A stretch of 64,000 nt of DNA from Advenella sp. FME57 (lineage in GTDB: Bacteria > Pseudomonadota > Gammaproteobacteria > Burkholderiales > Burkholderiaceae_B): positions 62,001 through 126,000 of the forward strand of contig NZ_JABUXU010000007.1 in assembly GCF_014897675.1 (NCBI RefSeq), in the 5' to 3' direction. The notes under the pieces are model-generated. The model worked only from the letters and a program-made list of their open reading frames with translations, did no database searches and was not told the DNA's origin. Positions 23,059 through 54,802 of the stretch are shown here, piece after piece. The stretch's first letter is position 1. Each line of letters begins with the position of its first letter. The position numbers and the translations under genes are program-made.

Positions 23059-23688
23059 TCATGTCAGATTCATATTTCGAGGGAACCCGGTAGACATGTC
23101 GCCAGCATCGCCATTGAGCAGCATGTCATGAAAACGCCCCAGTTCACTTTTATGCAATATATTGATTGGGCAGGCTATTTGCCGGGCATATTGCTCAAAT
23201 TGAGGATTCAATACACCGTCCCGAATATGCTGTGGCATCCCGGCATTAGGGAAAAATGGCTGAGTTTTGATCAAAACCAGCCGTTCAGCCTTCAGGTGAT
23301 TCGCCAACCAGGCTGCGATGCAATCAGACGACATATAAACTGAAGTCATTTCGTCAGCCTGTTCGCGCATCAGGTATAACGGCATCCAGACTGCGACGCC
23401 GCCACGCTGCAGAACATTGCGAATTGCACTGGCATTAACAACTGGAGTCAGCTGTGGTGACAATCCCGTGAGCATCAGGCCGTATTGTGCCCTTGCCAGC
23501 ACCAGCATATTGTGTGTTACCAGACTGTCAAATCCCCACTGCTTTTTCATGTCGCGAATGAATTCAACACCGCGCCATCGGCCGGGAACGATAATGACTC
23601 TGCCTCCTCCCAAAGCTCCAAGCTGCGCAAGCCACAGGTTCAAGGTTCTATCGTGCGCCAGATTACCATCAAGCTTTACAACCCACAT
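23059..23688 (-). CDS. Amino-acid-kinase-fold protein at the end of the mxa operon
   Basis: 209 residues, start WVVKLDGNLAHDRTLNLWLAQLGALGGGRVIIVPG as in aspartate/glutamate/uridylate kinases (AAK fold; COG2054-like), then TPVVNASAIRNVLQRGGVAVWMPLYLM, VYMSSDCIAAWLANHLKAERLVLIKTQ. Related bacterial kinases occur with methanopterin-type C1 genes (MfnE-like kinases phosphorylate a furan intermediate). Here it lies 20 bases after the beta-propeller gene and ends the mxa operon. Substrate unknown; a role in cofactor synthesis is an inference only. GGGGGGAG precedes the start. Confidence 0.7.
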   Translation of the reverse strand: MWVVKLDGNLAHDRTLNLWLAQLGALGGGRVIIVPGRWRGVEFIRDMKKQWGFDSLVTHNMLVLARAQYGLMLTGLSPQLTPVVNASAIRNVLQRGGVAVWMPLYLMREQADEMTSVYMSSDCIAAWLANHLKAERLVLIKTQPFFPNAGMPQHIRDGVLNPQFEQYARQIACPINILHKSELGRFHDMLLNGDAGDMSTGFPRNMNLT

Positions 23689-23707
23689 ACTCCCCCCTAG
23701 CGTCAGA

Positions 23708-24691
23708 TTATTCTTTTTTGCAAGACGAACGCGTTACCACAATCCGTGGCCCTGCATCCACTGCGATTTTCTTGATGACTCGTGTTTGATTCAAGTCCAC
23801 AACCACAACCGAATCATCAAACCAACTGGCTACATAAGCACGGCCGCCAACAATGGCTACGCCCTCAGGGTAGCGTCCGACTTTGACCGAATTCTTATCG
23901 ACGCTGCCGTCCGCACTGATCCGCTGAAGCACGCCCTTTTGCTGTGCTGTTGCCCATACTTGCTTGCCATCGTCGGTAACGGCCATGCCATATGGCATGG
24001 CCTCCATCTTGACCCGCCATGTCTCTTTCAGTGAGTCTGCCTCCAAACGGCTTATGGTGTTATCCTTGACGTTGGCCACATATATCTGCCCCTCATGCGC
24101 TACCAATGCAAATGGAGAGGCGCCCACAGCAACACTGGTGATGGGTTTCCACGCTTTCGCATTAACCACTGAAACTGTTGCGCTGCCCCGATCTGCAACA
24201 AAAATCCGCTCGCATGCCGCATCCAGCGTCAAACCTGCCGGTGCTTGTCCGACAGCGATCCGCCCCGTTTCCGTGCCGTCATAAGTACTGATCCGCACAA
24301 GCGCATTTCCTTTCCAGTCGGATACAAAAAGAGATTGTTCATCGGCAGACAGCGCTACCGCGAAAGGCTCTCCCGGAAAGTCATAGACTGCCTCTACTCG
24401 CTTGTCTGCCAGATTCAGCACAGAGATCTTTGCGCTATCGGGATGCGTCACATAACCGCGCCGACCATCCCTGGACACGGCAATGAATACCGGCTTTTCC
24501 GGCACCTCGACACGCGCCTGAACTTCGTTGGTGTCGACATCCACGATACTGACAGTATTTCCATCCTGGCTGGCCAAATAAACATACTCTTTGACCCTGT
24601 CCGCCGACGATGCGTTGGCAAGACAGAAGATCGACAGTCCAGCAATCGTGCCAAAGGACCTCACCAGTACGTTTATATAGCCAGCAACCAT
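23708..24691 (-). CDS. Exported YVTN-type beta-propeller protein
   Basis: 327 residues with an N-terminal signal (SFGTIAGLSIFCLANASSA) and about six to seven repeats of the YVTN/NHL kind: VYLASQDGNTVSIVDVDTNEVQARVEV, SKISVLNLADKRVEAVYDF, IYVANVKDNTISRLE. Probably periplasmic. It is one base from the end of mxaD and so belongs to the mxa operon; it may occupy the place of mxaE, but I cannot assign that. It may help cytochrome or PQQ handling, which is inference. Confidence 0.75.
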   Translation of the reverse strand: MVAGYINVLVRSFGTIAGLSIFCLANASSADRVKEYVYLASQDGNTVSIVDVDTNEVQARVEVPEKPVFIAVSRDGRRGYVTHPDSAKISVLNLADKRVEAVYDFPGEPFAVALSADEQSLFVSDWKGNALVRISTYDGTETGRIAVGQAPAGLTLDAACERIFVADRGSATVSVVNAKAWKPITSVAVGASPFALVAHEGQIYVANVKDNTISRLEADSLKETWRVKMEAMPYGMAVTDDGKQVWATAQQKGVLQRISADGSVDKNSVKVGRYPEGVAIVGGRAYVASWFDDSVVVVDLNQTRVIKKIAVDAGPRIVVTRSSCKKE

Positions 24692-24692
24692 A

Positions 24693-25220
24693 CTATTTAC
24701 CCTCTACAGTCTTCTTCAAACCGGCAAGGCCGTCCTTGTAGATTGCCGTCATGGCGGCGATCGCCGATTCATCATTCAGATTCTCCGGTGGTTCATTGCT
24801 CGTGTCTCCTCGGTAAAATCGGCCAATCCAGGACACTTTGCTGCCATCGCCGTCAGCCTCCACCGTCATGGTCGCTGAGTAGGAGCTGACAGGAAGCGCC
24901 TCAAGATTTTCGCCATCCATCCTATAGCTGTACGAATGCGCTGCTGCATCATATTCATCCAGGCTTTCCTTGATAACACCTTTCTCAAGCGTCAGCTCAC
25001 GCACGGATCCGGGCTCATTGCCCTTGTCTGCGGAACTTTTACTCACGTCCGGATGCCACTTTGAAATTTCTCCGAACGCACCCGCCGTCTCCCAGACTTT
25101 TTCCACAGGAGCGGAAATACTGATACTTTCTTCGACTTTTTTGGGTGTCGGACCATGAGCATAAGCAGGTGCCAGGGCCGTTGCCAAAAACAGCACAGTA
25201 ACGATTGTTGATCTAATCAA
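24693..25220 (-). CDS. mxaD: Methanol oxidation protein MxaD (periplasmic SRPBCC-fold)
   Basis: 175 residues with signal peptide (VTVLFLATALAPAYA) and an SRPBCC/polyketide-cyclase-like domain: SISISAPVEKVWETAGAFGEISKWHPDV and KVSWIGRFYRGD. MxaD of methylotrophs is reported to affect methanol dehydrogenase-cytochrome cL interaction. The apparent start is TTG 25220, which overlaps the mxaL TGA and follows AAGGAG by six to seven bases. It sits in the canonical place after mxaL. Confidence 0.82.
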   Translation of the reverse strand: MIRSTIVTVLFLATALAPAYAHGPTPKKVEESISISAPVEKVWETAGAFGEISKWHPDVSKSSADKGNEPGSVRELTLEKGVIKESLDEYDAAAHSYSYRMDGENLEALPVSSYSATMTVEADGDGSKVSWIGRFYRGDTSNEPPENLNDESAIAAMTAIYKDGLAGLKKTVEGK

Positions 25221-26323
25221 TGAAATCTCCTTAGGGAAGTGAACGAAACGGGTTTGCCCCGGCGCCGTGAAAAATTCGCTGCCGGGTGCAGCCGACGTCT
25301 GGCGCCTGCTGTACGGTTAATAAGATAAGCGGATAAATAAAAGACGATAAGCAGCACCCAGGCCAACCCCGCCAGGTAGGGAGCCAACTGAATCGGGCTC
25401 AACACTTTATGTTTTTTGGCATTTGATATGATTGACTCGGTCAGCGCACCGGAACCCCCTAATGTTGCATAGGTCATGCCATGAGCCGTTGCCAGTGTTC
25501 TTAAATGCGATTCTTTAAGTGAGGACAAGTGCTCGTTCCCCGTTGCGGCGCTTGCGCCAAAAGGTGCATTTCGCGCATGCCAGCCCTCACGGCTAGACGC
25601 ATCTGCCGGTGGCGGGCCACTGCGATTTTCCTGCTCAACCTCATCGGCGCCGAAAAATCCAGTCTGATGCCCTGTCTCGTCAAATTTCGGTATGGGCGAG
25701 GGGTTCCTGCCTCCCACGCCAACAATCAGACCGGCCATTTTTTCGGAAGCACCTTCTCGTGCCGCCGCCGTCTGTGTATTCAGCGTCTGGGCCCTGACCT
25801 GGGCTTCGCCCTGCAGCATCATGTGTCCGATTTCGGACTGGGCCGCAGGTAATGGCGGCGCCTCGTGCCCATCACTTAGGAAAACCAGACTTACTCCCAG
25901 GCTATCTGCAATTTCCAGCCCTGACTCAAGCCCCTTGGTGATGTAACTGTCGCCTTCCCATGCCATTCGCCAGTCCAGCTCATCCAGCGTGGCAGAAAGG
26001 GGGGCAAAGTTTTCACAAACCTCGACCGGTTCGAGCAGCAGAAACGAGCGTCTCTCGGAAAATACAGCCAGGCCGGCGCGGCTGCCGCAAGGCAGGCGAG
26101 CCAGCGTTTGCTTCAATTTGAGTCGAACTTCATCAAGCCTGCTGTGCAAATTGCCCTCGACGCCGTAATCACGTACGTTCATGCTGCCGGTAATATCGAT
26201 CACGAAGAGCAGCTCCGGCCTGTCCTGCTCGGCATTCATTTGAGGCCTGAAGCAGCCTGCAATTGCCAGACAAAACACGGCAGCCAACAGCCAGAACCGA
26301 TAGTCGAAGACAGATGCCGGCAT
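25217..26323 (-). CDS. mxaL: Methanol oxidation protein MxaL (von Willebrand factor A domain)
   Basis: 368 residues. One N-terminal membrane segment, then a vWA domain whose metal site starts DITGSMNVRD (DxTGS form of the MIDAS), and a C-terminal helix anchoring it (LAPYLAGLAWVLLIVFYLSAYL). In methylotrophs MxaA, C, K and L are needed to insert calcium into methanol dehydrogenase. It overlaps the mxaK stop by one base and the mxaD start by four bases. Confidence 0.85.
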   Translation of the reverse strand: MPASVFDYRFWLLAAVFCLAIAGCFRPQMNAEQDRPELLFVIDITGSMNVRDYGVEGNLHSRLDEVRLKLKQTLARLPCGSRAGLAVFSERRSFLLLEPVEVCENFAPLSATLDELDWRMAWEGDSYITKGLESGLEIADSLGVSLVFLSDGHEAPPLPAAQSEIGHMMLQGEAQVRAQTLNTQTAAAREGASEKMAGLIVGVGGRNPSPIPKFDETGHQTGFFGADEVEQENRSGPPPADASSREGWHARNAPFGASAATGNEHLSSLKESHLRTLATAHGMTYATLGGSGALTESIISNAKKHKVLSPIQLAPYLAGLAWVLLIVFYLSAYLINRTAGARRRLHPAANFSRRRGKPVSFTSLRRFH

Positions 26324-26970
26324 TATGGCAGCCCCTTTGGCAAGCCGGGTAAGTCGGTCCAGAGACGCTTGGGCGTTTCCGGCGACTCCTCTTCATCCGA
26401 AATTTGTCCCTCGGGCAGGTCGCGCACGAGCCGCGAAGCAATGTCCAGATTATATCGGGCGTTCCAGAAAGACGGATCCAGTCTTAATGCCCTTATATAG
26501 TACTCTTTGGCCAGTCGAACCGACGATGGCGCCTCTTCTGTTTTGCTGCTGCCAAGCAGTGCAATGGCAAAACGCAGCCGTGCATTCCCCATGTTGTACA
26601 GCGCCTGCGCGGCGATGAGACGATCCTTGGGAGATGCCGCAGATCCGTCTGCATGCACAGCGCGCCCTGCAAGCAGCTCAACCCACGGCAATGCGTCATC
26701 CAGGCGACCGATTGCAGTCAAAAACCGCAAGCGGGCAAAGGACACCTCGGGCGCAGCCTGCTCCGAAACGGCAATATCATTGCGATTTTCCAACTGGCCA
26801 ATGACGGCATTCTCTGCCTGTGTTCTATGTAAAAAAACCAGTGCAGTAATCATACCGGCAATCGCTGCCGTCAGCCCGAGCCATAAAACCCAGGTATACA
26901 GCTCGCCGAAATATTTCGGATGTGATGAAGCGCGCTTGCGCTCCTTGCCAGAGCGTGAAGTATCAACCAT
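26323..26970 (-). CDS. mxaK: Methanol oxidation protein MxaK
   Basis: 215 residues: one transmembrane helix (TWVLWLGLTAAIAGMITALVF) and a periplasmic helical segment with TPR-like character (AQALYNMGNARLRFAIALL, LAKEYYIRALRLDPSFWNARYNLDIA). Start chosen at 26970, preceded by AAGGAGCGCAA; it overlaps the end of mxaC. Part of the calcium-insertion set by position; molecular role unproven here. Confidence 0.8.
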   Translation of the reverse strand: MVDTSRSGKERKRASSHPKYFGELYTWVLWLGLTAAIAGMITALVFLHRTQAENAVIGQLENRNDIAVSEQAAPEVSFARLRFLTAIGRLDDALPWVELLAGRAVHADGSAASPKDRLIAAQALYNMGNARLRFAIALLGSSKTEEAPSSVRLAKEYYIRALRLDPSFWNARYNLDIASRLVRDLPEGQISDEEESPETPKRLWTDLPGLPKGLP

Positions 26971-27991
26971 TTGCGCTCCTTGTCGCGCCAGCGCCAACGA
27001 CTCGTTGCGCGCAATGCACCATCAACAGGACCATCAGAATCAGGGCAACAAGACCTGACAGATAGCCGGACAGATCCGTGCGCGGAATGTGTTCGGTATA
27101 TCGCAGTGGCGCTTTCTCTAGCTTGTCGATTTCACCCAGCGCGGCCGCCACATCATTGGCATTTTCCGCTTCAAAGGCCCGATAGTTAATACCGAGAGAC
27201 TTGAAAAAGATATCAAGATGGCGTTCCGGCATCGCCTGTGGGGTGTCTTTGTCAGGGTCGGAGGGGGCATCCCAAATACCTGCTGCACCCGCTGTCCGCA
27301 GAAACAGCCAATATAAGCTTACCGGACGGGTTGCCAGCGCTTTTTTCAAAGCGTTCTGAACCCGCATATCAATCACCGCCGCTCCGTCAGACACCAGAAA
27401 AATCACTCTGGAAGCAAGCGGATCATTATCATTGTCAAACTCGGACAGCGCCAAGGCAAGACCGCGACCAATGTCGGTATAGGACAAGCCTGGGCGGTCG
27501 ATGGCATTAATGGCAGCATCCACCGCCTCAGGTTTGTCGGTAAGCGGCAATACATAGAGCGGCATGGTGGAAAACGCCACCATGCCAATGCGATCCTGTT
27601 CGCGCTCGCCGGCAAAGCCTTTGAGCAATCTTTTTGCCGCCGCCGCCTTGGATTCTTCTTGTCCCGTTGGCATCCGCCCCGCGAAACTGCTGTTCATGCT
27701 GGAACTGCGATCAATCAGCAATACCATATGTGCGCCAGACCCAAGTTTCTGGATAGTTCCTCCTTTCAAATGGACGCCTGCCATGCAAAGAACCAGTGCA
27801 AGTAAAGCCAGACAGCCCAAAACCCGTAGCACGATATCAACGGTGTCGGAAAATCGGTCAGCTTGGGCGGTCCCAAGCCAGGGCCAATCTGACACTTGCC
27901 GGGGACGAAGAAAAAATGGCAGCAGCGCCAGTGGGGCCAGCAGGAGAAGATACGGCAAATCGACCGCCAGGGTACTCCACAGAAATGTCAT
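26963..27991 (-). CDS. mxaC: Methanol oxidation protein MxaC (von Willebrand factor A domain)
   Basis: 342 residues. Two N-terminal hydrophobic segments, a vWA domain with the metal-site motif DRSSSMNSS near residue 94, later GDxxAVID-like loops, and a C-terminal helix (LSGYLSGLVALILMVLLMV). It resembles BatA-type proteins that pair with MoxR ATPases. It overlaps mxaA by four bases. Confidence 0.85.
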   Translation of the reverse strand: MTFLWSTLAVDLPYLLLLAPLALLPFFLRPRQVSDWPWLGTAQADRFSDTVDIVLRVLGCLALLALVLCMAGVHLKGGTIQKLGSGAHMVLLIDRSSSMNSSFAGRMPTGQEESKAAAAKRLLKGFAGEREQDRIGMVAFSTMPLYVLPLTDKPEAVDAAINAIDRPGLSYTDIGRGLALALSEFDNDNDPLASRVIFLVSDGAAVIDMRVQNALKKALATRPVSLYWLFLRTAGAAGIWDAPSDPDKDTPQAMPERHLDIFFKSLGINYRAFEAENANDVAAALGEIDKLEKAPLRYTEHIPRTDLSGYLSGLVALILMVLLMVHCAQRVVGAGATRSANG

Positions 27992-28911
27992 AAGCCCCCC
28001 CTTTCTGCCGTGGCCAATTGTTTGGCAATTCGGAGCAGCCCGGACCGTGTCAGCTCAGTCAAGGCCACTGGCTGGTCATTGCCGAAGAAGGTGCGAGCCG
28101 ACGCGGCAAAGAAAAGTTCAATCTCGTTCTGCAGCGGCTTCAGTCCGGGGTGTTGCCGGACGAAGTCGGGGACGTCGCTCGATAGCAGGCGTCCTTCATT
28201 ACACGTGTCTAATGCACGATGCAGTTGAATCAGACTATGTCGGTATGATTCAGAGTCCGATGCACGCGCCTGCTTTTTGATTGCACGATACGCTTTTGCA
28301 AATGGTCTGGCCCGACGACGGTGAAAAGGCCATATGGCATAATGAACCGCAAGTGCAAGCAGCAATCCCAGGGCGAGCAGACCCAGGCCCGTGGCAACGG
28401 CCCTTAGCCGCTTCTCGCCAATCTGCCATGCCGGCGCATCAGGCTGAATTTGCTCTGAAACAGATGTGCCCGATTGGGCGACTCCGCGCAAGGGCGACAT
28501 GTAAAATACCAGGGGGGCAATTCGTACCGACTCCGACTGCGAACTCTCGCTAAACAGTACATCCAATGCTGGAATTTCCCGCTGATTCACATCCAGCGGA
28601 ACATAAAACGTCTGATAATTCAGTGTCAGCGTGTAACGCGTGCCTTCTCCCGACTTGCTTTGGGCAACGTCTATTGAACGCAGATCAAGCCAGTAATTCA
28701 ACGGACCTGGCTCGGGTAGCGAAGACTGCTGTAGCGTCCCGCCAATACTGTCAATATAGATCGTAACAGGTACCACATCCCCCAGTATCCATCCGGCGGG
28801 TTTGGGTGGAACCACCTGCACCTGGGTCACTTTGGCGTGCAAGGAACCGAATGAAGCAGCAAAATACAAAGCGGCAATAAAAAGCAGAAAAGGCCATATC
28901 CGTCCTCTCAT
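27988..28911 (-). CDS. mxaA: Methanol oxidation protein MxaA
   Basis: 307 residues: signal segment ending SLHAK, a periplasmic domain, a transmembrane helix (AVATGLGLLALGLLLALAVHY) and a basic cytoplasmic C-terminal portion (PFHRRRARPFAKAYRAIKKQ). Related to the BatD-like set of the MoxR system, and required for calcium loading of methanol dehydrogenase in model methylotrophs. Eight bases after mxaS. Confidence 0.83.
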   Translation of the reverse strand: MRGRIWPFLLFIAALYFAASFGSLHAKVTQVQVVPPKPAGWILGDVVPVTIYIDSIGGTLQQSSLPEPGPLNYWLDLRSIDVAQSKSGEGTRYTLTLNYQTFYVPLDVNQREIPALDVLFSESSQSESVRIAPLVFYMSPLRGVAQSGTSVSEQIQPDAPAWQIGEKRLRAVATGLGLLALGLLLALAVHYAIWPFHRRRARPFAKAYRAIKKQARASDSESYRHSLIQLHRALDTCNEGRLLSSDVPDFVRQHPGLKPLQNEIELFFAASARTFFGNDQPVALTELTRSGLLRIAKQLATAERGGL

Positions 28912-28919: not shown

Positions 28920-29789
28920 CTATCGCTCAAGCAGATATGTGTTCAACGCCTCAATATCCAGCCCGTGGGTTATCTCGAACGGGCGGTTTACATATTGTCT
29001 GAAGATGCCATTGAGGCGCGCGCGCCGTTTTTCTGCCTGATCAAGCCAGCGTCGCTTCAGCGAAGGTCGAAGAATAACAAAGCGTCGCTGGCCCGATTCC
29101 AGATCAGCCAAATCAGTGAACCCCCACTCGGGCAGCATGGAAACCGAGTTATCTTCCAGGACAACCGGGATGACATCATGAAACGCCAGTGTTGCCAGTG
29201 CCTCTTCGATTTGATTGTAAGGAAACAAAAAATCCGAAATAAGAAACACCAGCTTGCGTGCCCCCGTTAAATACTCTGCAGCCCTCGTCAGGCCCGCCGC
29301 ACTATCGTCCGTCGGCGGTACTCTGGATAAGCGATCGATGATAGCGCTGGCGCCGGCACGATTGCGCGTAGATAGCAGGCTGCTTTCTTCATGAACATCG
29401 TTGCCACAGGCATAGAGGCCAAAACTATCGCCATTTCGATGCGCCGAACGTGCGAGAATATCGCAAAATTCTGCCGCCATAGCCAACTTGCTCGATGCCC
29501 CATCACGCCAGGCCATCGATGAAGAAACATCCACCAGCGCGTACACTGTGACCGAAACACGCGGCTGGTACTCTCTGACGTACCACTGTTCAAACGGGTC
29601 CCGCATACTTCGCCGCAAATCCAGCCGTCGGATATCCGGTGCGCGTTCAAATGGTATCAAGCCGCGAAACATCCCCGAAGCCGCACCGCCCGACCCTCGA
29701 TGACTGCCCGGATAAACGCTTTGAACGCGCCATCGCAACGAATAGTCGATCGCCGCCGTGTCCGATGGCAGGCTGACTGACGCAGTCAT
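28920..29789 (-). CDS. mxaS: Methanol oxidation protein MxaS (DUF58)
   Basis: 289 residues of the DUF58 family: the signature DPFEQWYVREYQPRVSVTVYALVDVSSSMAW carries a metal-binding DVSSS motif. I chose the start at 29789, where ATG overlaps the mxaR TGA by four bases; an ATG at 29822 would extend into mxaR. Part of the MoxR (mxaR)-DUF58 (mxaS)-vWA chaperone system. Confidence 0.85.
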   Translation of the reverse strand: MTASVSLPSDTAAIDYSLRWRVQSVYPGSHRGSGGAASGMFRGLIPFERAPDIRRLDLRRSMRDPFEQWYVREYQPRVSVTVYALVDVSSSMAWRDGASSKLAMAAEFCDILARSAHRNGDSFGLYACGNDVHEESSLLSTRNRAGASAIIDRLSRVPPTDDSAAGLTRAAEYLTGARKLVFLISDFLFPYNQIEEALATLAFHDVIPVVLEDNSVSMLPEWGFTDLADLESGQRRFVILRPSLKRRWLDQAEKRRARLNGIFRQYVNRPFEITHGLDIEALNTYLLER

Positions 29790-30820
29790 GGAACCGCCAC
29801 TGTCGAAAAAATCTGCCGACAAAGCTCCGGCACTATAATATCGCGTCTTGCCTCATAGATCGGGTTCAGAAAAATACGGTGTCCGACAGTTTCGTAAAAG
29901 ACTTCGCGTATGTCCTCAGGCAAAACAATATCGCGTCCCTCAAGCCAGGCCCTCACTTTTGCAGCTCGAACCAGCACCGCCATCCCCCTGGGGCTGGCCC
30001 CACCCTTGATGAGTCTGGCACTGTCTATGCCCGCGATTTCAATATCTGATCGTTCCGGATAGCGGATCGCCTCCCACAACGTCACCACATATTCCTGCAG
30101 TGCATCACTGGCGTGTACGTGTTGCTGGATCCGCACCGCAACCGTATTGAGCATGGCATGATCCAGCACGCCTTCGGAAACTTCCTCGATAAGCGCATCG
30201 ACGTCGTGATATCGGGGATTGAAAATCAGCTCGCGCCGCAATTGTCTATCTTGAGGCGCCTCGACGGGCACTTCCATAAAAAACCGGTCACGCGCCGCCG
30301 CCGGCAGCTCAAAGGTCTCTTCCTTCTCAATCTGATTGCGATCTGCGAAAACCTGTACATTGGGAAGCTGAATATCTTTATTGAAGGCGTTCACGGCTTT
30401 TTCTGCCATCAGGCGAAGTAAAAGCGAGTGGACCTGTGGTCTGGCCCGATTAATCTCGTTGAAGAAAAAGACGGATATGTTCTCGCCATGGGACAGCAAA
30501 GGACCGGGTTCAACCCTGGGCCGCCCTTCTTCATTTAAGTAGGTATGATAGATGAGATCTGAGGGCATCAGGTCAATGGTGCCTTCAACCCGGCTGTAAG
30601 CGCCCCCTATAGCACGCGCAACGGCCCGCAGCATCAGGGTTTTTCCAACGCCAACATCCCCTTCCAGCAACACATGGCCTCTGGCAAAAATAGCAATCGT
30701 GATTAAACGGATGGTCCGGACCTGACCAATCGCGGCCTTGGCTACCTCCTGCTCGAACAACAGCGCGCGCTGGCGCCATTGAACCAGATCAATGCTGTCA
30801 TCGGCAGTGCCCTGAACCAT
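29786..30820 (-). CDS. mxaR: Methanol oxidation MoxR-type AAA+ ATPase MxaR
   Basis: AAA+ ATPase of the MoxR group, about 344 residues. Walker A is EGDVGVGKTLML near residue 55 and Walker B is FFFNEINRARPQVHSLLL, with Asn in place of the usual first acidic residue; a sensor/Arg-finger region follows (LPAAARDRFFM). It probably drives maturation of methanol dehydrogenase together with MxaS, C and L. The start at 30820 has GGGAGAAG upstream, which is better than the in-frame ATG at 30844. Confidence 0.88.
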   Translation of the reverse strand: MVQGTADDSIDLVQWRQRALLFEQEVAKAAIGQVRTIRLITIAIFARGHVLLEGDVGVGKTLMLRAVARAIGGAYSRVEGTIDLMPSDLIYHTYLNEEGRPRVEPGPLLSHGENISVFFFNEINRARPQVHSLLLRLMAEKAVNAFNKDIQLPNVQVFADRNQIEKEETFELPAAARDRFFMEVPVEAPQDRQLRRELIFNPRYHDVDALIEEVSEGVLDHAMLNTVAVRIQQHVHASDALQEYVVTLWEAIRYPERSDIEIAGIDSARLIKGGASPRGMAVLVRAAKVRAWLEGRDIVLPEDIREVFYETVGHRIFLNPIYEARRDIIVPELCRQIFSTVAVP

Positions 30821-30951
30821 GAAACTCTTCTCCCGAAAGGCCATATCACGTCAATACTAAGAGACGGTGAAACTCAATTTCTTGTTGTTCATCGCGAACG
30901 ATCCTGAACCGTGAAGACGGCCCAGGATACGCACGTCTGTTCCATGTACTG

Positions 30952-31257: not shown

Positions 31258-31367
31258 CAGTTTCTCCTCTTTTGTGTTCACCTGTCTGTCGGCACCAGCT
31301 ACCGATTATTACAGGTTCCAATTTCCCGCGTCTTCAACGCAAGATCTGCCATCCGCCGATTGGCGGA

Positions 31368-36212: not shown

Positions 36213-37679
<1,467 letters not shown>

Positions 37680-39200: not shown

Positions 39201-39201
39201 C

Positions 39202-46736: not shown

Positions 46737-47306
46737 TTAAGATGCATGTTTTGATTTTGCAACGTGTGTTGCGATAACGTCCATCAACGCCGGCGACAGC
46801 GCATCATAGGGCGGCAATCCCAGTTCGTTCAATCTTGCACGAATGCCATTCATTTCTGCAGGATCGGTGCCTGTTTCAATAATGGACGAGACAAAAGCGG
46901 CAAAGGTGGGTGCAGACCAGCCGGTCTGCGGAGAGCGCTCTGTATGAATGAAATCGAGCCCATAGAATGGATGCTGCGCATTTTCAATGCGGCCATACAT
47001 GTGAACGCCACAACCGCTGCATGCATGACGCTGAATGGCTGCCGACTCGTCGACCACCTTGAGCTTGTCGGCATGGGCTGTCACTTGCACCGACTCTTTG
47101 GGCACCACGGCAACCTGCGAAAACAGGGCGCCTGCAGGCCGCCAGCATTTAGAGCAACCACAAAGGTGATTATGTGCTGATTGCGAGTTCACGGTTACTT
47201 CTACCCTGTCTGTCTCGCAGTTGCACACCAGTTTGCCACCGGTAAAGTTATTGTCTGTACTCGCCTGAACGCCATTGTTAACGGCTGGATGGATATTGTA
47301 ACTCAT
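46737..47306 (-). CDS. gfa: S-(hydroxymethyl)glutathione synthase (glutathione-dependent formaldehyde-activating enzyme)
   Basis: 189 residues. The zinc-binding Cys set is visible in [38 protein letters not shown] and [15 protein letters not shown], the Gfa family signature. The enzyme speeds formation of S-hydroxymethylglutathione, the substrate of AdhC. Start 47306 has GGAGA just upstream; an in-frame ATG at 47480 lies in poorly conserved sequence. Confidence 0.95.
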
Positions 47307-47731
47307 ATGTGTCTCCGGATTGGTTATGAATGGTTCTGACTTGATCGGGCACCTTCCCCGCCAAACATGGCACCTTGCACATGGGCAGGCAATAACCACT
47401 CCTAAAGCAACTTCCATGCCAATCATCGGAAACGATGGCGCCTGCAGGCGAGAAAACAGAGTGAACAGAAGCAGAACCATTCCGCTTTCACAACGGCGCT
47501 GCGCCGGTCACTTCAAAGCGCGAATCAGCAGTTGTTCAGAATACGATACAGGCTGTTCCATGGTCTGCCGAAGATGCACGCGGGTCGATACAGATGCGGC
47601 GGCGTGCAGGCGATGCAACGCCCGGTCTGTCACGAACGACACGCATGCGTGCAAGACAGCCGCAAATCAAAGGCGAATCAGAGGGGCGAATCAGCGGGTA
47701 AATCTGTCCAGATGCTCAGGCCCCTGTTGTG
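47307..47731 (-). other. Intergenic region upstream of gfa
   Basis: About 425 bases between gfa and the peptidase gene without any supported gene; small plus-strand ORFs are shadows with no family features. The gfa promoter should be here. Confidence 0.4.
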
Positions 47732-48769
47732 TCAGGACGCTGCCGATAGCCGGGTCATGGTATCGGTCAGCGCCGCAAGAATGAGCGGATCCGAAGGCGT
47801 ATGCGTGCCGCCCGGGACCCAGCACAGATCGGCGCCGGGCAGGAAGCGCTGCAGCATATGAACGTTGGCCGCAGGACATATCCAGTCGTGCGTGCCATGC
47901 AGCAAAGTGGTCTTCACCGGCACCTGGCGCAACTGCGCGAGCAGCGCAGGCAGATCGATAAACCCCGTGTGGCGCAAATAGTGTGCCTGGATGCGATATT
48001 TATGAATATTGCGCGCCGCAGCCCTGGCCTGGCCTTGGTCGCGTTCGCCATCTTCACCCTGAGGCTGCGCACTGGCAGCCGCCTGCGCTGCCGAGCCCTG
48101 GGCCTGGGTATGTTTTTTTTGGGCTGGCTGCCCGCTGGACGCTTGCTGCGCTGGCTTGCCCTGCATCATGCTGCCCATGATATTGTTCTCGTAGTTGCTC
48201 CAGCGTTCGGCTGCATCCGACATTTTCTCGCGATCGCTGCCAAGTAGCCTGTCGGCCAGCGTCAGCAGAACCGATTCTTTTTCACTGTCACTCATGGTCT
48301 CGGTCAGGCTGTCCCAAGCTTGCGGAACCAATGCCTGCAGTTGCTGGAAGAACCAGTCCAGTTGCAGCCGGGACGGCAGAAACGTGCCGCGCAGCACGAG
48401 ATGGTGAATACTTGCGGCGTACCTGGCGACGTAAGCCAGGGCCAGGTATGCCCCCCACGATCCGCCCACGACGGTCCACGCTGAAATGGCCAGATGTTGT
48501 CTCAGGCGTTCAATATCGTCCACCAGGTGCGCCGTTGTATTATGTTCCAGACTTCCGGTGGGCAGGCTTTTACCGCTGCCGCGCTGGTCAAACAGGACCA
48601 CTCGCCAGCGCCTGAGGTCGAACCAGTCCAGCATGGCAAGATTGCTGCTACTGCCCGGCCCGCCATGCAGAACGACCGCGGCAGGCGCCCGGACATTGCC
48701 GAATTCGGCGTAGTACAGCTGGTGACCATCGGGGGTCTGCAGATAACCTTGGGACAATGGCATGCTCAT
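47732..48769 (-). CDS. Proline iminopeptidase-like alpha/beta hydrolase with a Gln/Ala-rich insertion
   Basis: 345 residues. Oxyanion motif HGGPGSSSN and the nucleophile elbow VGGSWGAYLALAY (Ser104) fit the prolyl aminopeptidase family; DQRGSGKS follows the first motif and HGTHDWICP and GGTHTP hold the acid and His regions. Residues ~203-253, in the cap region, are replaced or expanded by Gln/Ala/Gly-rich low-complexity sequence (QQASSGQPAQKK and on), absent in usual relatives. Start at 48769; the 63-base upstream extension is not favoured. Confidence 0.8.
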   Translation of the reverse strand: MSMPLSQGYLQTPDGHQLYYAEFGNVRAPAAVVLHGGPGSSSNLAMLDWFDLRRWRVVLFDQRGSGKSLPTGSLEHNTTAHLVDDIERLRQHLAISAWTVVGGSWGAYLALAYVARYAASIHHLVLRGTFLPSRLQLDWFFQQLQALVPQAWDSLTETMSDSEKESVLLTLADRLLGSDREKMSDAAERWSNYENNIMGSMMQGKPAQQASSGQPAQKKHTQAQGSAAQAAASAQPQGEDGERDQGQARAAARNIHKYRIQAHYLRHTGFIDLPALLAQLRQVPVKTTLLHGTHDWICPAANVHMLQRFLPGADLCWVPGGTHTPSDPLILAALTDTMTRLSAAS

Positions 48770-48868
48770 AAAACAAGTTCCGGGCAGAAGATGAAAACAG
48801 GATCGCACTATTACAACTGATACAATAACCAAGGCATAAACCGGAGATTTTTTGCAGGTTAAAGCGCC

Positions 48869-49030: not shown

Positions 49031-49105
49031 ATGAAATGGACAACACCTGAGTTTTGCGATCTGCGTTTTGGCTTTGAAATCACGATGTACATTGCCAACC
49101 GTTAA
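49031..49105 (+). CDS. pqqA: PQQ precursor peptide PqqA
   Basis: 24-residue substrate peptide MKWTTPEFCDLRFGFEITMY then IANR, with the Glu16 and Tyr20 that are cross-linked by PqqE to form PQQ. A start-codon region with AGGAG (approximately 49018) precedes it. pqqBCDE follow. Confidence 0.95.
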   Translation: MKWTTPEFCDLRFGFEITMYIANR

Positions 49106-49168: not shown

Positions 49169-50098
49169 ATGAAAATTCTTGTGCTTGGCTCTGCCGCCGG
49201 TGGCGGATTCCCGCAGTGGAACTGCAACTGTCCCAATTGTGACGGTGTACGCCGACAGAGTATCCGTGCCATACCCCGTACCCAGTCATCCATCGCGATC
49301 TCGGCAGACGGTATTCAATGGCTGCTGGTCAATGCCTCTCCCGATATTCTCAAACAGATCCAGGCTAATCCGGCGCTGCAACCGGCACGCAGCGTGCGTG
49401 ATACTGGTATCACATCTGTAATATTAATGGATGCGCAGATCGATCACGTGACCGGCCTGTTAATGCTGCGAGAAAGCAGCAGCCCCATCCCCTTGTACTG
49501 TACCGAGCCGGTCTGGAACGATCTGAGCACCGGCCTGCCGCTTACCCAGGTTCTATCGCATTATTGCGGCCTGACGCATCGGCACATTACCGTTGAAGAG
49601 AATCGCTTTAGCCCGCCCTTGCAGCTTGTTGAGCTTCCCGGCATTAACATCACACCGTTTCCGCTCACCAGCAAGGCTCCGCCCTATTCGCCCAACCGCA
49701 ACAACCCGCAGGTCGGCGACAATATCGGCCTGCTCATTACCAGTGAGCGCTCTGGCAAAAGTCTTTTTTATGCGCCCGGTCTGGGCCAAATCGAGCCGCT
49801 AGTGCTCGAGGCCATGTCCCGTGCCGATTGCGTCATGGTAGACGGAACGGTGTGGACCGAAGACGAGATGATCCGTCTTGGCCTGTCGCGCAAAACCGCT
49901 GCCCAGATGGGCCATCTGCCGCAATCCGGACCCAAAGGCATGATCAGCGTTCTGGACTCGCTGGGCAAAAATAAACGCAAGATTCTAATTCATATCAACA
50001 ACAGCAATCCGATCCTGGATCAGGACTCGGAACAGGCTGCAGTACTGCAACGGCATAATATCGAAATCGCCGTTGATGGCATGGAGATTACATTGTGA
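49169..50098 (+). CDS. pqqB: PQQ biosynthesis protein PqqB
   Basis: 309-residue metallo-beta-lactamase-fold protein: [48 protein letters not shown] with the metal-binding His region, and the [37 protein letters not shown] end. It is proposed to hydroxylate the PQQ precursor. The 49169 start matches the family start. Confidence 0.96.
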
Positions 50099-50853
50099 GC
50101 ATCGTTCTTTCGAATCTCGCTGGGTATAACCAGAAGCAAACCGACCCCGAGGCCTGGGACCGGGCTGAATTTGAACGCCAGTTGCGCGCCAAAGGTGCCA
50201 GCTACCACATTCATCATCCATTCAATGTCCGGATGAACAGCGGCCAGTTGAGCCAGGACGATATCCGATGCTGGGTTGCCAACCGCTTCTATTACCAGAT
50301 TAACATTCCGCTCAAAGATGCTGCAGTCATGTCAAACTGCCCGGACAGGGAAACCCGCCGTCGCTGGATCCTGCGCATGCTGGACCATGATGGCTTCGGC
50401 GATAACGAAGGCGGCATTGAAGCCTGGACTCGTCTGGGTCAAGCGGTGGGTATCAGCCGCGAGGACTTGTGGTCTCTGAAGCTGGTCGCGCCCGGCGTGC
50501 GTTTTGCCGTGGATGCCTATGTCAATTTTGCGCGTCAGGCGCCCTGGCAGGAAGCGGTGTGTTCATCGCTGACCGAAATGTTTGCACCAAAAATACACAA
50601 AGACAGGCTGGCAAACTGGCCCGGTCATTATCAGTGGATCGAGGCAGGCGGACTGGAATATTTCCGCAGCCGGATCTCTCTGGCAGAAAGGGATGTCGAG
50701 CACGGATTGCAGGTCACGCTCGATTACTTTACCACTCGCCAGCAACAGGCGCGGGCACTGGAAATACTGCAGTTCAAACTGGACATTCTATGGTCCATGC
50801 TGGATGCCATTGAAAAAGCCTGCCAGCACCACAGCGAGACCACTCATGCCTGA
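50095..50853 (+). CDS. pqqC: Pyrroloquinoline-quinone synthase PqqC
   Basis: Catalyses the final eight-electron oxidation to PQQ. 252 residues, GTG start overlapping the pqqB TGA. Typical segments: [41 protein letters not shown] and the [13 protein letters not shown] helix, C-terminal helices ending [24 protein letters not shown]. Confidence 0.95.
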
Positions 50854-51109
50854 CTTGCCCGAAAAGCCCCTGTTGTCGCGCCTGTTCCGGCTGCAGTACG
50901 AAAAAGCGCAAAATGCCTATGTCCTGCTGTACCCAGAAGGCATGGTCAAGCTGAACGACAGCGCCGCCGAAATTCTACGTCGCTGTGATGGCGATCGCAA
51001 TATTGCCCAGATCGTTGCCGATCTGGAACAAAGCTTTGCCACGACAGGATTGCAGAACGATGTTGAATCATTTTTGCAGGCTGCACAGGAGCGTGGCTGG
51101 ATCAAATAG
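50846..51109 (+). CDS. pqqD: PqqD peptide chaperone
   Basis: 87 residues of the RiPP recognition element: [50 protein letters not shown]. It binds PqqA and presents it to PqqE. The gene starts inside the end of pqqC (8-base overlap). Confidence 0.94.
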
Positions 51110-51117
51110 AGGTCATC

Positions 51118-52308
51118 ATGGATATGCCCCAAGCCGTTGAACAAAAGCAGAAAGCGACCATTGCGCCACCGCTGTGGCTGCTGGCCGAACTGACCTATCG
51201 CTGCCCGCTGCATTGCGTGTTCTGCTATAACCCGGTCGACTATGCCAGCAACCTGAACGAGCTCAGTACCGACCAGTGGATCAGCGTCATGCGCCAGGCC
51301 CGGGAAATGGGCGCGGCACAGTTGGGGTTTTCCGGCGGAGAGCCTTTGCTGCGCGATGACCTGGAAGTACTTGTGGCCGAAGGTCGCCAATTGGGTTTCT
51401 ATACCAATCTTATTACCTCCGGCGTTGGCTTAAAGCGCGAACGGCTTGCCGCCCTGCGGGATGCCGGGCTCGATCATATTCAATTGTCATTCCAGGATTC
51501 GACCCGGGAAATGAACGATTTCCTGACGCACACCAAAACCTTTGATTTGAAATCGCGCGTTGCCGCCATGATTCGGGAATTCGAATATCCCATGGTGCTG
51601 AACGTGGTTCTGCATCGCTATAATCTGGACCATATCGAGCGCATTATCGAGATGGCCGACAAGATGGGGGTGGAATATCTTGAACTGGCCAATACACAGT
51701 ATTACGGCTGGGGCCTGATCAATCGCGAACAGTTGTTACCCGACAGATCACAATTGCAGCGCGCCGAAGCGGCCGTAGCGCGCTATCGCGAAAAAATCGG
51801 CAACCGGATGCGCATTCTGTTTGTCGTACCGGATTATTTTGAAAAACGCCCCAAAGCCTGTATGAACGGCTGGGGATCCGTTTTCCTGGCCATATCCGCC
51901 GATGGTAGCGCCCTACCCTGTCACGCAGCAAAGACGATTCCGGGCCTGCAGTTTCCGCAAGTAACCGAGAGCACTGTGCATGATATCTGGTACCACAGCG
52001 ATGCATTCAACAAGTTCCGTGGTGATGACTGGATGCAGGAACCTTGTCGCACCTGCCCAGAAAAGGAGCATGATTTTGGTGGCTGCCGTTGTCAGGCGCT
52101 GGCCCTGACCGGCAATGCAGCCAACGCCGACCCGGTTTGCGATAAATCGCCCTATCACCATGTCATTACAGATATGATCGGACGCACGCCGGCAGCAGCC
52201 GTCCAGGAAAAGCCACTGGTGTTCCGCAACGATGCCAACTCGCGCAGGCTATCGGCCAGCACGGCCACCAACGCCCTGGCAAGCGAGGACAAAATGTCGC
52301 CTTCATAG
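51118..52308 (+). CDS. pqqE: Radical SAM protein PqqE
   Basis: 396 residues. Radical SAM cluster Cys29, Cys33, Cys36 in LTYRCPLHCVFCYNPV; SPASM-domain cysteines occur at the C terminus (ALPCHAAK, EPCRTCPEKEHDFGGCRC). The enzyme links Glu16 and Tyr20 of PqqA. It follows pqqD by eight bases. The last ~50 residues are variable. Confidence 0.96.
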   Translation: MDMPQAVEQKQKATIAPPLWLLAELTYRCPLHCVFCYNPVDYASNLNELSTDQWISVMRQAREMGAAQLGFSGGEPLLRDDLEVLVAEGRQLGFYTNLITSGVGLKRERLAALRDAGLDHIQLSFQDSTREMNDFLTHTKTFDLKSRVAAMIREFEYPMVLNVVLHRYNLDHIERIIEMADKMGVEYLELANTQYYGWGLINREQLLPDRSQLQRAEAAVARYREKIGNRMRILFVVPDYFEKRPKACMNGWGSVFLAISADGSALPCHAAKTIPGLQFPQVTESTVHDIWYHSDAFNKFRGDDWMQEPCRTCPEKEHDFGGCRCQALALTGNAANADPVCDKSPYHHVITDMIGRTPAAAVQEKPLVFRNDANSRRLSASTATNALASEDKMSPS

Positions 52309-52529
52309 GGAAAACGAGACACGCATGACATATCATGTGATATACAATTGGGTGAACATAGACAGGTTACCCAGCCACTAGCGGGTTATCGTATTTTTTG
52401 CAGTTTAATGTTGCGCAGACGACATCAACAAGCAGCGGGCATACAACCCGTAACAAGCACCGAGACAGATTACAAAATCGGCATCAGCCACCGAAAGGAC
52501 AAGCGCTGATGTACATAGCAGGAGGAGAC

Positions 52530-54563
52530 ATGTACTCGTTGGAGGTCAGCAACCACATTGAGCGGATTAACCAGATCGTGCATCGCGGCGTCATGGTTCC
52601 TGACGTTGACCCGGCGGTCGCCAGTTCCTGGGGGCGTTGTGTCAATGATTATGGCCTGGATCCGGAAAGCCGGCGACTGCCTCCCGTTCTAACTCACGCC
52701 GAGCGGATCGCGCGCTCGGAACAGAAGCGGGTCCTGATTACCGAAGCCAAACACGAAATGAATATTCTGTATCAGCAACTGGCTGATCCGGAACTGGCCG
52801 TGGTTCTCGTGGACACCGATGGTTGTATTTTGCACATGGTGGCAGCCGATCATCTGGAAAGTGATCTTTCCGGACTGGGCTTGCGCCTGGGGGCGATCTG
52901 GAGTGAGGAGGAAGTGGGCACGAACGGAATGGGCACCTGCCTGGCCGTTGGCGAACCCATTGCAATCCGCCAGACCGACCACTTTTTATACAAGCATATT
53001 TTGCTTACCTGTTCCGCAGTACCGGTCATGGACCATACCGGAAAAATGATTGCGGTACTGGACGTGACCAGCCGCTCGTCGCTGCTCCAGCAGCATTCAC
53101 TGGTGCTGATTGGCATGACAGCCCGCATGATCGAAAACCGCCTGCTTACCGTCAATTGCAAGCATGCACATCCGGTTCATTTTCACAGCCGGCCCGAAAG
53201 CATCAATACCGTACATGACGGCAAGCTGATGGTCGAGGAAGATGGCACCATCGTTGCCGCCAACCAAAGTGCGCTGTTCCAGTTGGGCTTTCCCGATATG
53301 CAGGCGCTGCGCCGCTACCGCTTCGACGAAATTTTCCAGCTAACGCTTGAATCTCTTTTGCAACGCAGTATGCAAAGCTCGTTTCACCCGGTACCGATCT
53401 ATCGGGCCGGGGCCTCCAGCCGTTTTTTTGCCGTGGCCCAACTGCCTCCTGCCGGCTCCACTCAATTGTCCTTTCACCGCGCGTCATCCAAACCTTCGTC
53501 CCTGCCAGCACAGGACAAAGTGGCCGAGCCCGCCAATCTGTCTGCCAGAACCGGCAAGCAGGGCAGCATCGCCTGCGTTGAACTTGGCGACCCCGTCTTG
53601 CGCGAACAATTCGAACTGGCACAGCGCGTCGTCAGCAAGGCAGTTCCAGTTCTGCTGTATGGCGAGACAGGATCTGGCAAGGAAGTGCTCGCCCGCGCCG
53701 TTCACCATCGCAGTCCCCGCCGCGATGGCCCCTTCGTCGCCGTCAACTGTGCATCCCTGCCCGAAAGCCTGATCGAAAGCGAATTGTTCGGCTACCGCGC
53801 AGGCGCTTTTACCGGCGCCCAGCGCCAGGGCCGCAGCGGCAAAATACTGCAGGCTCACGGCGGCACGCTTTTGCTTGACGAAATTGGCGATATGCCTTTG
53901 GCATTGCAGGCACGCCTGCTGCGCGTACTCGATGAACGCAAGGTCACGCCACTCGGTGCAGAGGCATCGGTCGATGTAGATATTCAATTGATCAGCGCCA
54001 GCCACCGGAATCTGACAGATCTGGTAGCCAAGGGCCAATTCAGGGAAGACCTGTACTACCGACTCAATGGGGTAGAGATACGCTTGCCGCCACTGCGCGA
54101 GCGCCAGGATAAACACCAGCTTATCGAGGCCATCCTCCAGGAAGAAGCCGGCAAACCGGTAGTACTCAGTGACCAGGCGCTGAAGATTCTCATGCAATAC
54201 GTCTGGCCTGGCAATTTGCGCCAAATGCGTCACGTGTTGCGCACCATGGCTGTCCTGGCCGAGGGCACAACCATTGGCCTGGAGCATTTGCCAGGGCCGC
54301 TGGCTGAGCTGCATGCGCAACCGGCAGGCAATGGCGCCGCGCCAGTCGGACTGACAGACTGCCTGGCAATGGGCGATGAGCACGAACCTGTCAACCCCTT
54401 GCAGGAAAGTGAAAGAATCACCCTGATCCAGTTGCTGGAAACCCATCGCTGGAACATCAGCGATGTGGCGCGAACGCTGGGTGTCAGCCGCAATACCCTG
54501 TATCGCAAACTGCACCGGCACAACATTACCCTGTCAACCCAGGGTAACCCCACCACCATCTGA
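52530..54563 (+). CDS. Sigma-54-dependent transcriptional activator, AcoR type
   Basis: 677 residues from the ATG preceded by GGAGGAGAC; upstream ATGs lack such a signal. Order: a GAF-like sensor (LADPELAVVLVDTDGCILHMV, EEVGTNGMGTCLAVGEPIAIRQTDHFL), a PAS-like part, AAA+ central domain with Walker A YGETGSGKEVLARAVHH, the sigma-54 contact loop GAFTGA, and Walker B GGTLLLDEIGDM, then a Fis-type HTH (WNISDVARTLGVSRNTLYRKL). It follows pqqE by about 220 bases. It may activate the mxaF sigma-54-like promoter, alone as inference. Confidence 0.87.
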   Translation: MYSLEVSNHIERINQIVHRGVMVPDVDPAVASSWGRCVNDYGLDPESRRLPPVLTHAERIARSEQKRVLITEAKHEMNILYQQLADPELAVVLVDTDGCILHMVAADHLESDLSGLGLRLGAIWSEEEVGTNGMGTCLAVGEPIAIRQTDHFLYKHILLTCSAVPVMDHTGKMIAVLDVTSRSSLLQQHSLVLIGMTARMIENRLLTVNCKHAHPVHFHSRPESINTVHDGKLMVEEDGTIVAANQSALFQLGFPDMQALRRYRFDEIFQLTLESLLQRSMQSSFHPVPIYRAGASSRFFAVAQLPPAGSTQLSFHRASSKPSSLPAQDKVAEPANLSARTGKQGSIACVELGDPVLREQFELAQRVVSKAVPVLLYGETGSGKEVLARAVHHRSPRRDGPFVAVNCASLPESLIESELFGYRAGAFTGAQRQGRSGKILQAHGGTLLLDEIGDMPLALQARLLRVLDERKVTPLGAEASVDVDIQLISASHRNLTDLVAKGQFREDLYYRLNGVEIRLPPLRERQDKHQLIEAILQEEAGKPVVLSDQALKILMQYVWPGNLRQMRHVLRTMAVLAEGTTIGLEHLPGPLAELHAQPAGNGAAPVGLTDCLAMGDEHEPVNPLQESERITLIQLLETHRWNISDVARTLGVSRNTLYRKLHRHNITLSTQGNPTTI

Positions 54564-54593
54564 AAAGCGGTACAATCAATTTACTGCACCGCA

Positions 54594-54625
54594 ACACCGG
54601 CCCCTAAGGCCGGTGTCTTTGTTTT
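54594..54625 (+). terminator. Rho-independent terminator after the activator gene
   Basis: Stem ACACCGGCC / GGCCGGTGT around CCTAA, followed by CTTTGTTTT on the plus strand. It lies 30 bases after the stop of the activator. Confidence 0.85.
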
Positions 54626-54802
54626 CCGCATGATCTGCATTACAAACCGGTCCCGGGTTTACCAGCCTGTCGGGCCTCCAGTCGGTTGCACACCCCTACA
54701 TTATTCATACACTACTTTGCCGTGACTGGCTGTTGACGCGCGCCTTCAGCGAATGTGGCGCGGCGACCGATGCCGCACGATCATTTATCTCAAGGACTAT
54801 TC

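Follow-up and report, generated by a model that had tools for sequence, protein, structure and literature searches.

An autotrophic-methylotrophy locus of Advenella probably joins an old Calvin-cycle core to an exchangeable methanol dehydrogenase cassette

When the genes for methanol oxidation and for carbon fixation lie side by side in a chromosome, did they arrive together as one mobile unit, or did the parts follow separate histories? The question is raised by a window of 64,000 nucleotides from Advenella sp. FME57 (positions 62001-126000 of the 248 kb contig C16 in genome G000, a draft of 4.74 Mb in 59 contigs). Positions 23059-54563 hold mxaFJGIRSACKLD for methanol dehydrogenase, the Calvin-Benson-Bassham (CBB) operon with its regulator (cbbR-cbbLSXYFPTA), the formaldehyde genes adhC-gfa, pqqABCDE for pyrroloquinoline quinone (PQQ) and a gene for a sigma-54-dependent activator. 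A preliminary description had placed this methanol-to-Calvin gene set here, and a listing of open reading frames (ORFs) together with Pfam and NCBIfam scans, from which genes were called, bears it out; it had also proposed that the block was acquired as a mobile island. Comparison across the genus makes it probable that the locus is an old core with an exchangeable front end, to which a pathway and its regulation can be assigned by prediction.

The stretches between the left flank (Sir2-tRNA-Asn-actP-DUF485) and the right flank (SBF-GNAT-PPK2-typA-truB) were compared in ten genomes of the genus. In six of these, cbbR-cbbLSXYFPTA-adhC-gfa-pip-pqqB-C-E-sigma54-SBF stands in identical order at the same place: the window's genome, its sister species G046, G047 (which we take to be A. 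kashmirensis WT001, a species presumably synonymous with Tetrathiobacter kashmirensis), G048, G050 (presumably A. mimigardefordensis) and G051. The DNA of 13 core genes, with two Pollutimonas genomes serving as outgroup (one of them, G200, partial), gives the tree (G048,(G051,(G050,(G047,(G000,G046))))) with all branches at 99-100, and a tree of 14 left-flank genes has the same topology with support of 95-100. In codon usage, the core genes resemble 71 background genes taken from ten segments of this genome, each 20 kb long and two of them from the window's own contig (z -0.9 to +1.9). Because order and place are shared by six of the ten genomes and the tree is that of the left-flank housekeeping genes, the core from cbbR through cbb, adhC, gfa, pip and pqq to the activator is judged, on gene order and phylogeny, to be ancestral to the six species. 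Two trees weigh against a simple vertical history: one built from four right-flank genes pairs G046 with G047 (95/95), and the tree of core proteins, although it repeats the topology of the core DNA tree, unites the window's genome and G046 at no more than 73/69.

In the four other congeners, which have smaller genomes, tRNA-Asn lies within 0.4 kb of ppk2, the block is not there, and CbbL and MxaF/XoxF-like proteins found no match in any of the four. That the two genes adjoin where the block is missing could speak for a recently acquired mobile island, the whole 31.6 kb having brought autotrophic methylotrophy in one step, as could its patchy distribution: mxaI is over the cut-off in seven of 268 family genomes (nine at E<=0.001) and in seven of 399 genomes of the order, own genome counted, and CbbL of at least 56% identity occurs in 13 of the 268 (any match, 98). 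In addition, MxaF groups with alpha- and gammaproteobacterial sequences, with only 62-65% identity to those of family f25 of the same order. Such an island is nevertheless very unlikely, since the core occupies one site in six species and resembles the species in its phylogeny and the host in its codon usage, since mxa is absent from three of the six core carriers, and since the search found no integrase among the 40 window proteins scanned and no second copy of the tRNA-Asn 3' end as an attachment repeat in the window, where only the tRNA itself matched. An ancient single transfer of the block into the ancestor of the six species may have occurred. A search of the 15 kb downstream of typA in 12 other Alcaligenaceae detected neither tRNA-Asn nor ppk2.

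The exchangeable part is the segment between cbbR and the DUF485 gene. In the window's genome, G048 and G051, this segment is an mxa cassette of about 11.8 kb, and in G046, G047 and G050 it is an unrelated xoxF cassette of about 8.5 kb; none of the six carries both. XoxF is found at 97-100% identity in three of the ten genomes and MxaF in three others, and the best match to XoxF in the window's genome is its own MxaF (51%). MxaF carries the motif DEWDYA and XoxF the motif DEWDYD (HDEWDYDGVN in G046), so that MxaF has alanine rather than aspartate at the position of the extra lanthanide ligand, a difference that we take to separate calcium-type from lanthanide-type methanol dehydrogenases. The window shows the arrangement of MxaFI-type systems, with MxaI encoded near MxaF, MxaJ and MxaG, while the XoxF of G047 matches TIGR03075. 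Beyond xoxF, the xox cassette encodes a small secreted protein, a cytochrome, a XoxJ-like protein, the product of one further gene, a beta-propeller protein, cytochrome b561 and an amino-acid kinase, all named from sequence alone. The XoxJ-like protein is 26-27% identical to MxaJ, and the amino-acid kinases of the two cassettes are 60-62% identical. Four consecutive aspartates close both the small secreted protein and the XoxJ-like protein of G046, and a metal-binding role can be guessed for them.

At four-fold degenerate sites, the xox cassette and the core have diverged to a similar degree (71.1 vs 71.1% identity between G046 and G047; 61.8 vs 59.8% between G046 and G050). By this measure the cassette looks vertically inherited within its own clade, and the ancestor of G046, G047 and G050 therefore probably carried it. 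The window's species, as sister of G046, is nested inside this xoxF clade, yet carries mxa, and its MxaF shares 95% identity with the MxaF of A. kashmirensis W13003. Most mxa genes deviate in codon usage (z -1.1 to -2.6; mxaF -0.1, mxaG -0.7, mxaI too short to score), and the third-position G+C content (GC3) of the cassette, 0.551-0.614 vs 0.637-0.671 in the core, is below that of the core and the left flank in all six genomes and for both cassette types. Since mxa is replaced in three of six core carriers, is low in GC3 and has flanks unusually similar to G046, the cassette appears to have been acquired or exchanged.

The mobile acquisition of the preliminary description consequently fails for the core, at least as something recent, and survives in kind for the methanol dehydrogenase cassette, for which acquisition or exchange is supported. 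The refuting condition that it had named, a block standing at one place in close relatives and following vertical phylogenies, holds for the part from cbb through gfa and pqq to the activator and not for the mxa part. The checks that it had proposed divide along the same line: gene order gives an ancestral core in six of ten genomes and mxa replaced by xoxF in three of six; composition is host-like in the core, and low in codon z for most mxa genes and in GC3 for the cassette; and the core DNA tree follows the left flank, as expected of vertical descent, while the mxa DNA and protein trees disagree.

Traces of an exchange are seen in the flanking DNA. In 187 half-overlapping 500-base windows, in which our window was compared with G046 and with G047, identity to G046 averages 91.9% (standard deviation 4.8), and seven of the eight highest values (97.6-99.0%) flank the cassette, six within 20501-22250 and one at 35251-35750; the eighth is at 16751. 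G047, in the same seven flanking windows, is at 88.6-92.2%, near its own mean of 89.6%, and over actP the identity to G046 in 100-base steps is 96-100%. Because identity between the window and its sister species peaks in the DNA on both sides of the cassette, these alignments suggest that the cassette was exchanged by homologous recombination. On the right, the two cassette types cease to be homologous some 40 bases after cbbR ends; on the left they do so near 23010, by a conserved 20-base element (22991-23010, no strand assigned) that accompanies the left edge in either type and is present in five of the six genomes. This element was considered as a recombination site and not retained; it is single-copy per region and may belong to the actP upstream region.

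Several observations weigh against such an exchange. When G046 is contrasted with G047, flanking windows take ranks 1-3, directly followed by windows at 10251 and 4251, and the tract of high identity is interrupted (86% at 22400-22600, in DUF485, and 68% at 22900-23000) and drops to 90-93% at 35750-36050. Furthermore, mxa is about 10 points more diverged than the core at four-fold sites in all three pairs: the window against G051 and G048 gives 46.4 and 41.1% (core 56.6 and 52.5%), and G051 against G048 gives 38.7% (core 48.9%). The mxa copies are thus either older or faster-evolving than the core. The mxa DNA tree places the window's genome with G051 (99/99), in conflict with the mxa protein tree, which places it weakly with G048 (72/64). 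A recent mxa transfer from a donor like G051 or G048 was rejected, mxa being at least as diverged as the core.

The divergence of mxa could also be taken to mean that the ancestor held mxa and xoxF together at this site and that one or the other was later lost without any swapping, since the divergence measured from the window to G051 follows the order of the species, and a deficit of similar size in all three pairs is what old vertical copies would show. Differential loss would, however, require several independent losses and leaves none of the six genomes as a double carrier, and both cassettes lie between the same edges with the peak of sister identity around them; we regard it as quite unlikely. 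It is far less probable still that the assembly joined a G046-like genome and another Advenella into a chimera. The draft is fragmented and most mxa genes deviate in codon usage, but the cassette lies in a single contig with sister-like DNA on both sides, estimated contamination is 0.19%, the mxa-type intergenic sequence continues from the cbbR stop as it does in G051, and G048 and G051 carry mxa at the same place.

Under exchange by recombination, the segment from cbbR to the actP upstream region would have been swapped between mxa and xoxF through the shared flanks, and the window's lineage and its sister species would have taken on different cassettes after they split. In the simplest course, xoxF would have replaced mxa once, before the four-species clade arose, and one return exchange would have followed in the lineage of the window or of its sister. 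In a search of plasmids with the stretch from mxaF to cbbR, 123 records matched and none covered 80% of it; the best 20 of the 123 match the mxaF part only, at 64.6-73.3%.

The mxa cassette lies throughout on the minus strand. Its first gene, mxaF (32932-34845; TIGR03075 over the cut-off), encodes the large subunit of PQQ methanol dehydrogenase with the calcium-type motif, followed by mxaJ (31948-32901; TIGR03870 over the cut-off), mxaG for cytochrome cL (31368-31889; TIGR03872 over the cut-off) and mxaI for the small subunit (30952-31281; PF02315, 2.5e-45). Profile scans identify mxaR (MoxR AAA, 29786-30844) and mxaS (DUF58, 28920-29822), and with homology mxaC (26963-27991) and mxaL (25217-26323), both with vWA domains, and the mxaD-like gene mxaD (24693-25220). 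Pfam gave no match for mxaA (27988-28911) and mxaK (26323-26997), which are named from gene order and homology. A YVTN beta-propeller gene (23708-24691, profile scan) precedes the last cassette gene (23059-23688), which encodes an amino-acid kinase weakly matching MfnE, a methanofuran enzyme (29.5 bits, cut-off 300). This kinase is retained in both cassette types, yet the genus is without any fae match.

The core begins with cbbR (35165-36076, minus strand; LysR family, profile scan), divergent from the CBB operon on the plus strand: cbbL for the large subunit of form I RuBisCO (36216-37679; profile scan and homology), cbbS (37746-38165), and, from profile scans, cbbX for RuBisCO activase (38232-39200), the phosphatase gene cbbY (39199-39966), cbbF for fructose-bisphosphatase (40019-41104) and cbbP for phosphoribulokinase (41199-42089), then cbbT for transketolase (42097-44124) and cbbA for aldolase (44187-45242). 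The genes cbbS, cbbT, cbbA, pqqA and pqqD were named from sequence alone, the first two from the translation and cbbA from the start of it; all three cbb genes are kept in six genomes. On the minus strand follow adhC (45609-46721), whose product has zinc alcohol dehydrogenase domains and resembles S-(hydroxymethyl)glutathione dehydrogenase, and gfa (46737-47306; profile scan), the start of which is probably 47306 rather than 47480. Between gfa and pqq, pip (47732-48832, minus strand) encodes a prolyl-aminopeptidase-like hydrolase (TIGR01249 below the cut-off). The pqq genes are on the plus strand: pqqA for a precursor peptide of 24 amino acids (49031-49105), pqqB (49169-50098), pqqC (50095-50853), pqqD (50846-51109) and pqqE (51118-52308), with B, C and E from profile scans. 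The activator gene (52398-54563, plus strand) encodes a GAF-AAA-Fis protein with ESELFG and GAFTGA motifs. Lying beside pqq in Advenella, Pollutimonas and Alcaligenes-type clusters alike, the hydrolase may help to process the PQQ precursor. Elsewhere in the genome (G000:C31:12967-13857, locus L002) lies the gene for a second RuBisCO-like protein, which shows about 31% identity to CbbL and has weak homologues that are common across the family.

The Gfa and AdhC families have established roles in formaldehyde metabolism, and MxaFI with PQQ passes electrons to cytochrome cL. In the pathway proposed for this locus, MxaFI would oxidise methanol in the periplasm, with cytochrome cL (MxaG) as electron acceptor; formaldehyde would be converted by the glutathione route to formate and carbon dioxide through Gfa and AdhC, assisted by FghA and formate dehydrogenase from elsewhere in the genome; and the cbb operon would fix the carbon dioxide released from methanol. 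Genes over the cut-off for fghA are present in all ten genus genomes and for the formate dehydrogenase alpha subunit in nine, off the island and, in the window's genome, on other contigs, while fae was found in none of the ten. Because of this distribution, formaldehyde is expected to be processed through glutathione, the tetrahydromethanopterin route being presumably unused.

It is unlikely, on balance, that methanol and formaldehyde oxidation would serve only energy or detoxification, with the Calvin operon serving other donors such as reduced sulfur and the linkage being incidental. In the literature T. kashmirensis is described as a sulfur-chemolithoautotroph (PMC3669393), Alcaligenes endophyticus (G055) has mxa-pqq-adhC without any RuBisCO match, and four other Alcaligenaceae (G214, G040, G151 and G070) carry cbb with no gfa, adhC or pqq match within 15-20 kb around it. 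Yet cbb occurs with gfa-adhC-pqq in all six Advenella block carriers and in both Pollutimonas, and the XoxF version of the methanol-to-CBB pathway has been shown experimentally in Bradyrhizobium and Sinorhizobium (PMC12628762). The trait list published for T. kashmirensis WT001 includes the Calvin cycle, PQQ synthesis and methanol dehydrogenase (PMC3669393).

A shared mode of control is predicted as well, as a -24/-12 promoter motif and a GAFTGA activator are both present in the cluster. The strict pattern TGGYAYRN4TTGCW was scanned in six genus regions of 64-78 kb and agrees with the consensus quoted for sigma-54 promoters of methane monooxygenase in PMC5874634. It yields 16 sites, 15 of them upstream of island genes, while resampling the window with a first-order Markov model produces 0.22 sites per 64 kb, with no more than one in any of 100 trials. 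A site lies upstream of gfa-adhC in all six genomes; in the window (47406-47421, minus strand) it is 100 bases before the likely gfa start, and falls inside an over-long ORF if the first ATG is taken. After cbbR, a site stands upstream of mxaF in all three mxa genomes (34954-34969 in the window, minus strand) and upstream of the amino-acid kinase gene in all three xox genomes, and these sites of the two types have near-identical letters, TGGTAYGRATATTGCT. The three xox genomes have another upstream of the small secreted protein gene, and one site lies elsewhere in G050. Outside the genus, P. bauzanensis (G199) also has a site upstream of mxaF, and G200 has three, one upstream of the small secreted protein gene. 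Among named mxaF loci (the best 80 of 378 relatives, up to 10 kb each side), a site within 400 bases upstream of mxaF occurs in two, both Alcaligenaceae, and in none of the other 78.

Some results weigh against this circuit. A loose scan allowing two mismatches gave 54 sites vs 50.6 expected, not above chance, and the strict pattern was set only after that scan had failed; the weight of the strict sites therefore rests on their conservation. No strict site was found in the gfa-cbb stretch of P. bauzanensis or in the mxa clusters of G055, G132 and G176. The conserved sites nevertheless suggest, as a prediction from motifs, that the island's activator drives the genes for methanol and formaldehyde oxidation. 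In the proposed circuit, this GAF-type sigma-54 activator would drive mxaF and gfa-adhC, and CbbR would drive the cbb operon. The soluble methane monooxygenase system with sigma-54 and MmoR likewise combines a sigma-54 promoter with a cluster-encoded GAF-type activator (PMC5874634); the targets predicted here differ in being the genes for methanol dehydrogenase and formaldehyde oxidation.

Related gene sets outside the genus are arranged differently. In Pollutimonas, G200 holds cbbR-cbb-adhC-gfa, xoxF with its partners, the sigma-54 activator, beta-propeller protein, cytochrome b561, pip and pqq in one block, with xoxF between gfa and pip. In G199, pqq-pip-gfa-adhC-cbb-cbbR lies without xoxF at that locus, and mxa, the amino-acid kinase gene and the sigma-54 activator gene are on a contig other than that of cbb. 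The core of these two genomes is related to that of Advenella but stands in a different genomic context, and by its gene content Pollutimonas is read as a second genus with similar modularity. Other Alcaligenaceae (G055, G132, G176) carry mxa-pqq-pip-sigma54-adhC clusters, and a search for CbbL gave no match in G055 and G132 and only 33% in G176. Across these three and Pollutimonas, mxa or xox is alike in being found with pqq, pip, the sigma-54 activator and adhC, Pollutimonas having cbb as well.

An older origin of MxaF outside the family can be considered. In a tree of 39 of 89 rows (with SH-aLRT support only, leaving out the partial G176 and 49 named loci, and rooted by choice on f25, which we infer to be Methylophilaceae), the six Alcaligenaceae are united in a single clade (96), which falls among alpha- and gammaproteobacterial sequences and away from the six of f25. 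Identity is 75-82% to the former vs the lower values given above for f25, which fits, at the level of protein sequence, an old transfer of MxaF into the Alcaligenaceae. For CbbL, the best matches outside the family are 88% (same order) and 86% (another class of the phylum) among 398 genomes sampled, and the best on a plasmid is 86%, in Cupriavidus necator H16.

A locus of XoxF, CBB and PQQ genes is already known from alphaproteobacteria, on the pSymB megaplasmid of Sinorhizobium. In S. meliloti 2011, XoxF, CBB, PQQ and glutathione genes lie within 28.5 kb of pSymB; methanol dehydrogenase, pqq, gfa and form I RuBisCO genes are together there, as in the window, and the differences are xoxF rather than mxa, a megaplasmid location and another gene order, with lanthanide uptake genes reported for the pSymB cluster (PMC12628762). 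A pSymB-type record of another S. meliloti strain shares a LysR regulator and a YVTN beta-propeller gene, and a sigma-54 activator is not among the genes of 35 kb of the record, the gene table of which is incomplete. The window is thus like the pSymB kind in having CBB, glutathione and pqq genes adjacent, and unlike it in that its methanol dehydrogenase is not XoxF. In methylotrophic Alphaproteobacteria (Xanthobacter, Ancylobacter, Methylobacterium), the order mxaFJGIRSACKLD is alike, with a downstream beta-propeller gene in most loci. Beside mxa, cbbL was found among the best 80 loci only in A. kashmirensis W13003; 76 of them (L056-L131, nearly all alphaproteobacterial by title) gave no cbbL match in the DNA compared, which reaches at most 10 kb to either side of mxaF.

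The mxa-cbb version, the swap of cassettes between sister species and the predicted sigma-54 circuit look new. In the open-licence PMC literature, covered by titles and starts of abstracts, none of the matches listed concerns methanol dehydrogenase with RuBisCO in Alcaligenaceae (including Advenella), sigma-54 control of mxaF, or a swap of mxa and xoxF cassettes. For Advenella itself, the same literature gave nothing among the matches listed beyond the WT001 trait list of PMC3669393.

The surroundings of the locus are roughly the housekeeping genes named by the preliminary description. On the left are pyrG, a Sir2 gene, tRNA-Asn (20429-20504, minus strand; found with ARAGORN), which anchors the site on its left side in each of the ten congeners, and the genes for an actP-like SSF symporter and DUF485 (20658-22689, minus strand), which form the left flank of the cassette. 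On the right are an SBF transporter gene, GNAT and PPK2 and then typA-truB-rbfA-infB, with names partly from sequence. The tRNA-Asn is in tandem duplicate in G044, G045 and G049 (L147-L149) and single in the scanned stretches of the other seven. The gap between GNAT and ppk2 is 6-8 kb in G046, G047, G048 and G050 and about 1 kb in the window and G051. In G046 and G048 it holds a TauD-like, ABC-transporter-like and lactate-permease-like set, named by eye, and a small ORF of the long gap is recognisable in the window at 56875-57138 (gap 56651-57600). In the G047 stretches L135-L137, cbbR, cbbL, cbbT, actP, typA and the sigma-54 activator match only piecewise, which looks like sequencing error rather than decay.

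An expression switch between methanol dehydrogenase types has been described (PMC5874634). Double carriers that switch expression are the usual material for the open question of why bacteria keep calcium-type and lanthanide-type enzymes; here the two types alternate as cassettes at one position, next to a pathway that is otherwise constant. We tentatively raise the possibility, somewhat less than even in our estimation, that Advenella maintains a two-allele system of metal choice, in which mxa and xoxF alleles circulate at one site and methanol dehydrogenase has a new regulator in the sigma-54 activator. If so, a single homologous recombination would change the metal cofactor of a species while the rest of the pathway stays constant, with the core fixed and a sigma-54 promoter retained at the cbbR-side edge of both cassettes. 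The locus documents a calcium-type methanol-to-Calvin gene set in the Alcaligenaceae together with a testable predicted sigma-54 circuit, and the window's species and its sister G046 form a closely related natural pair in which metal dependence, fitness and regulation could be compared.

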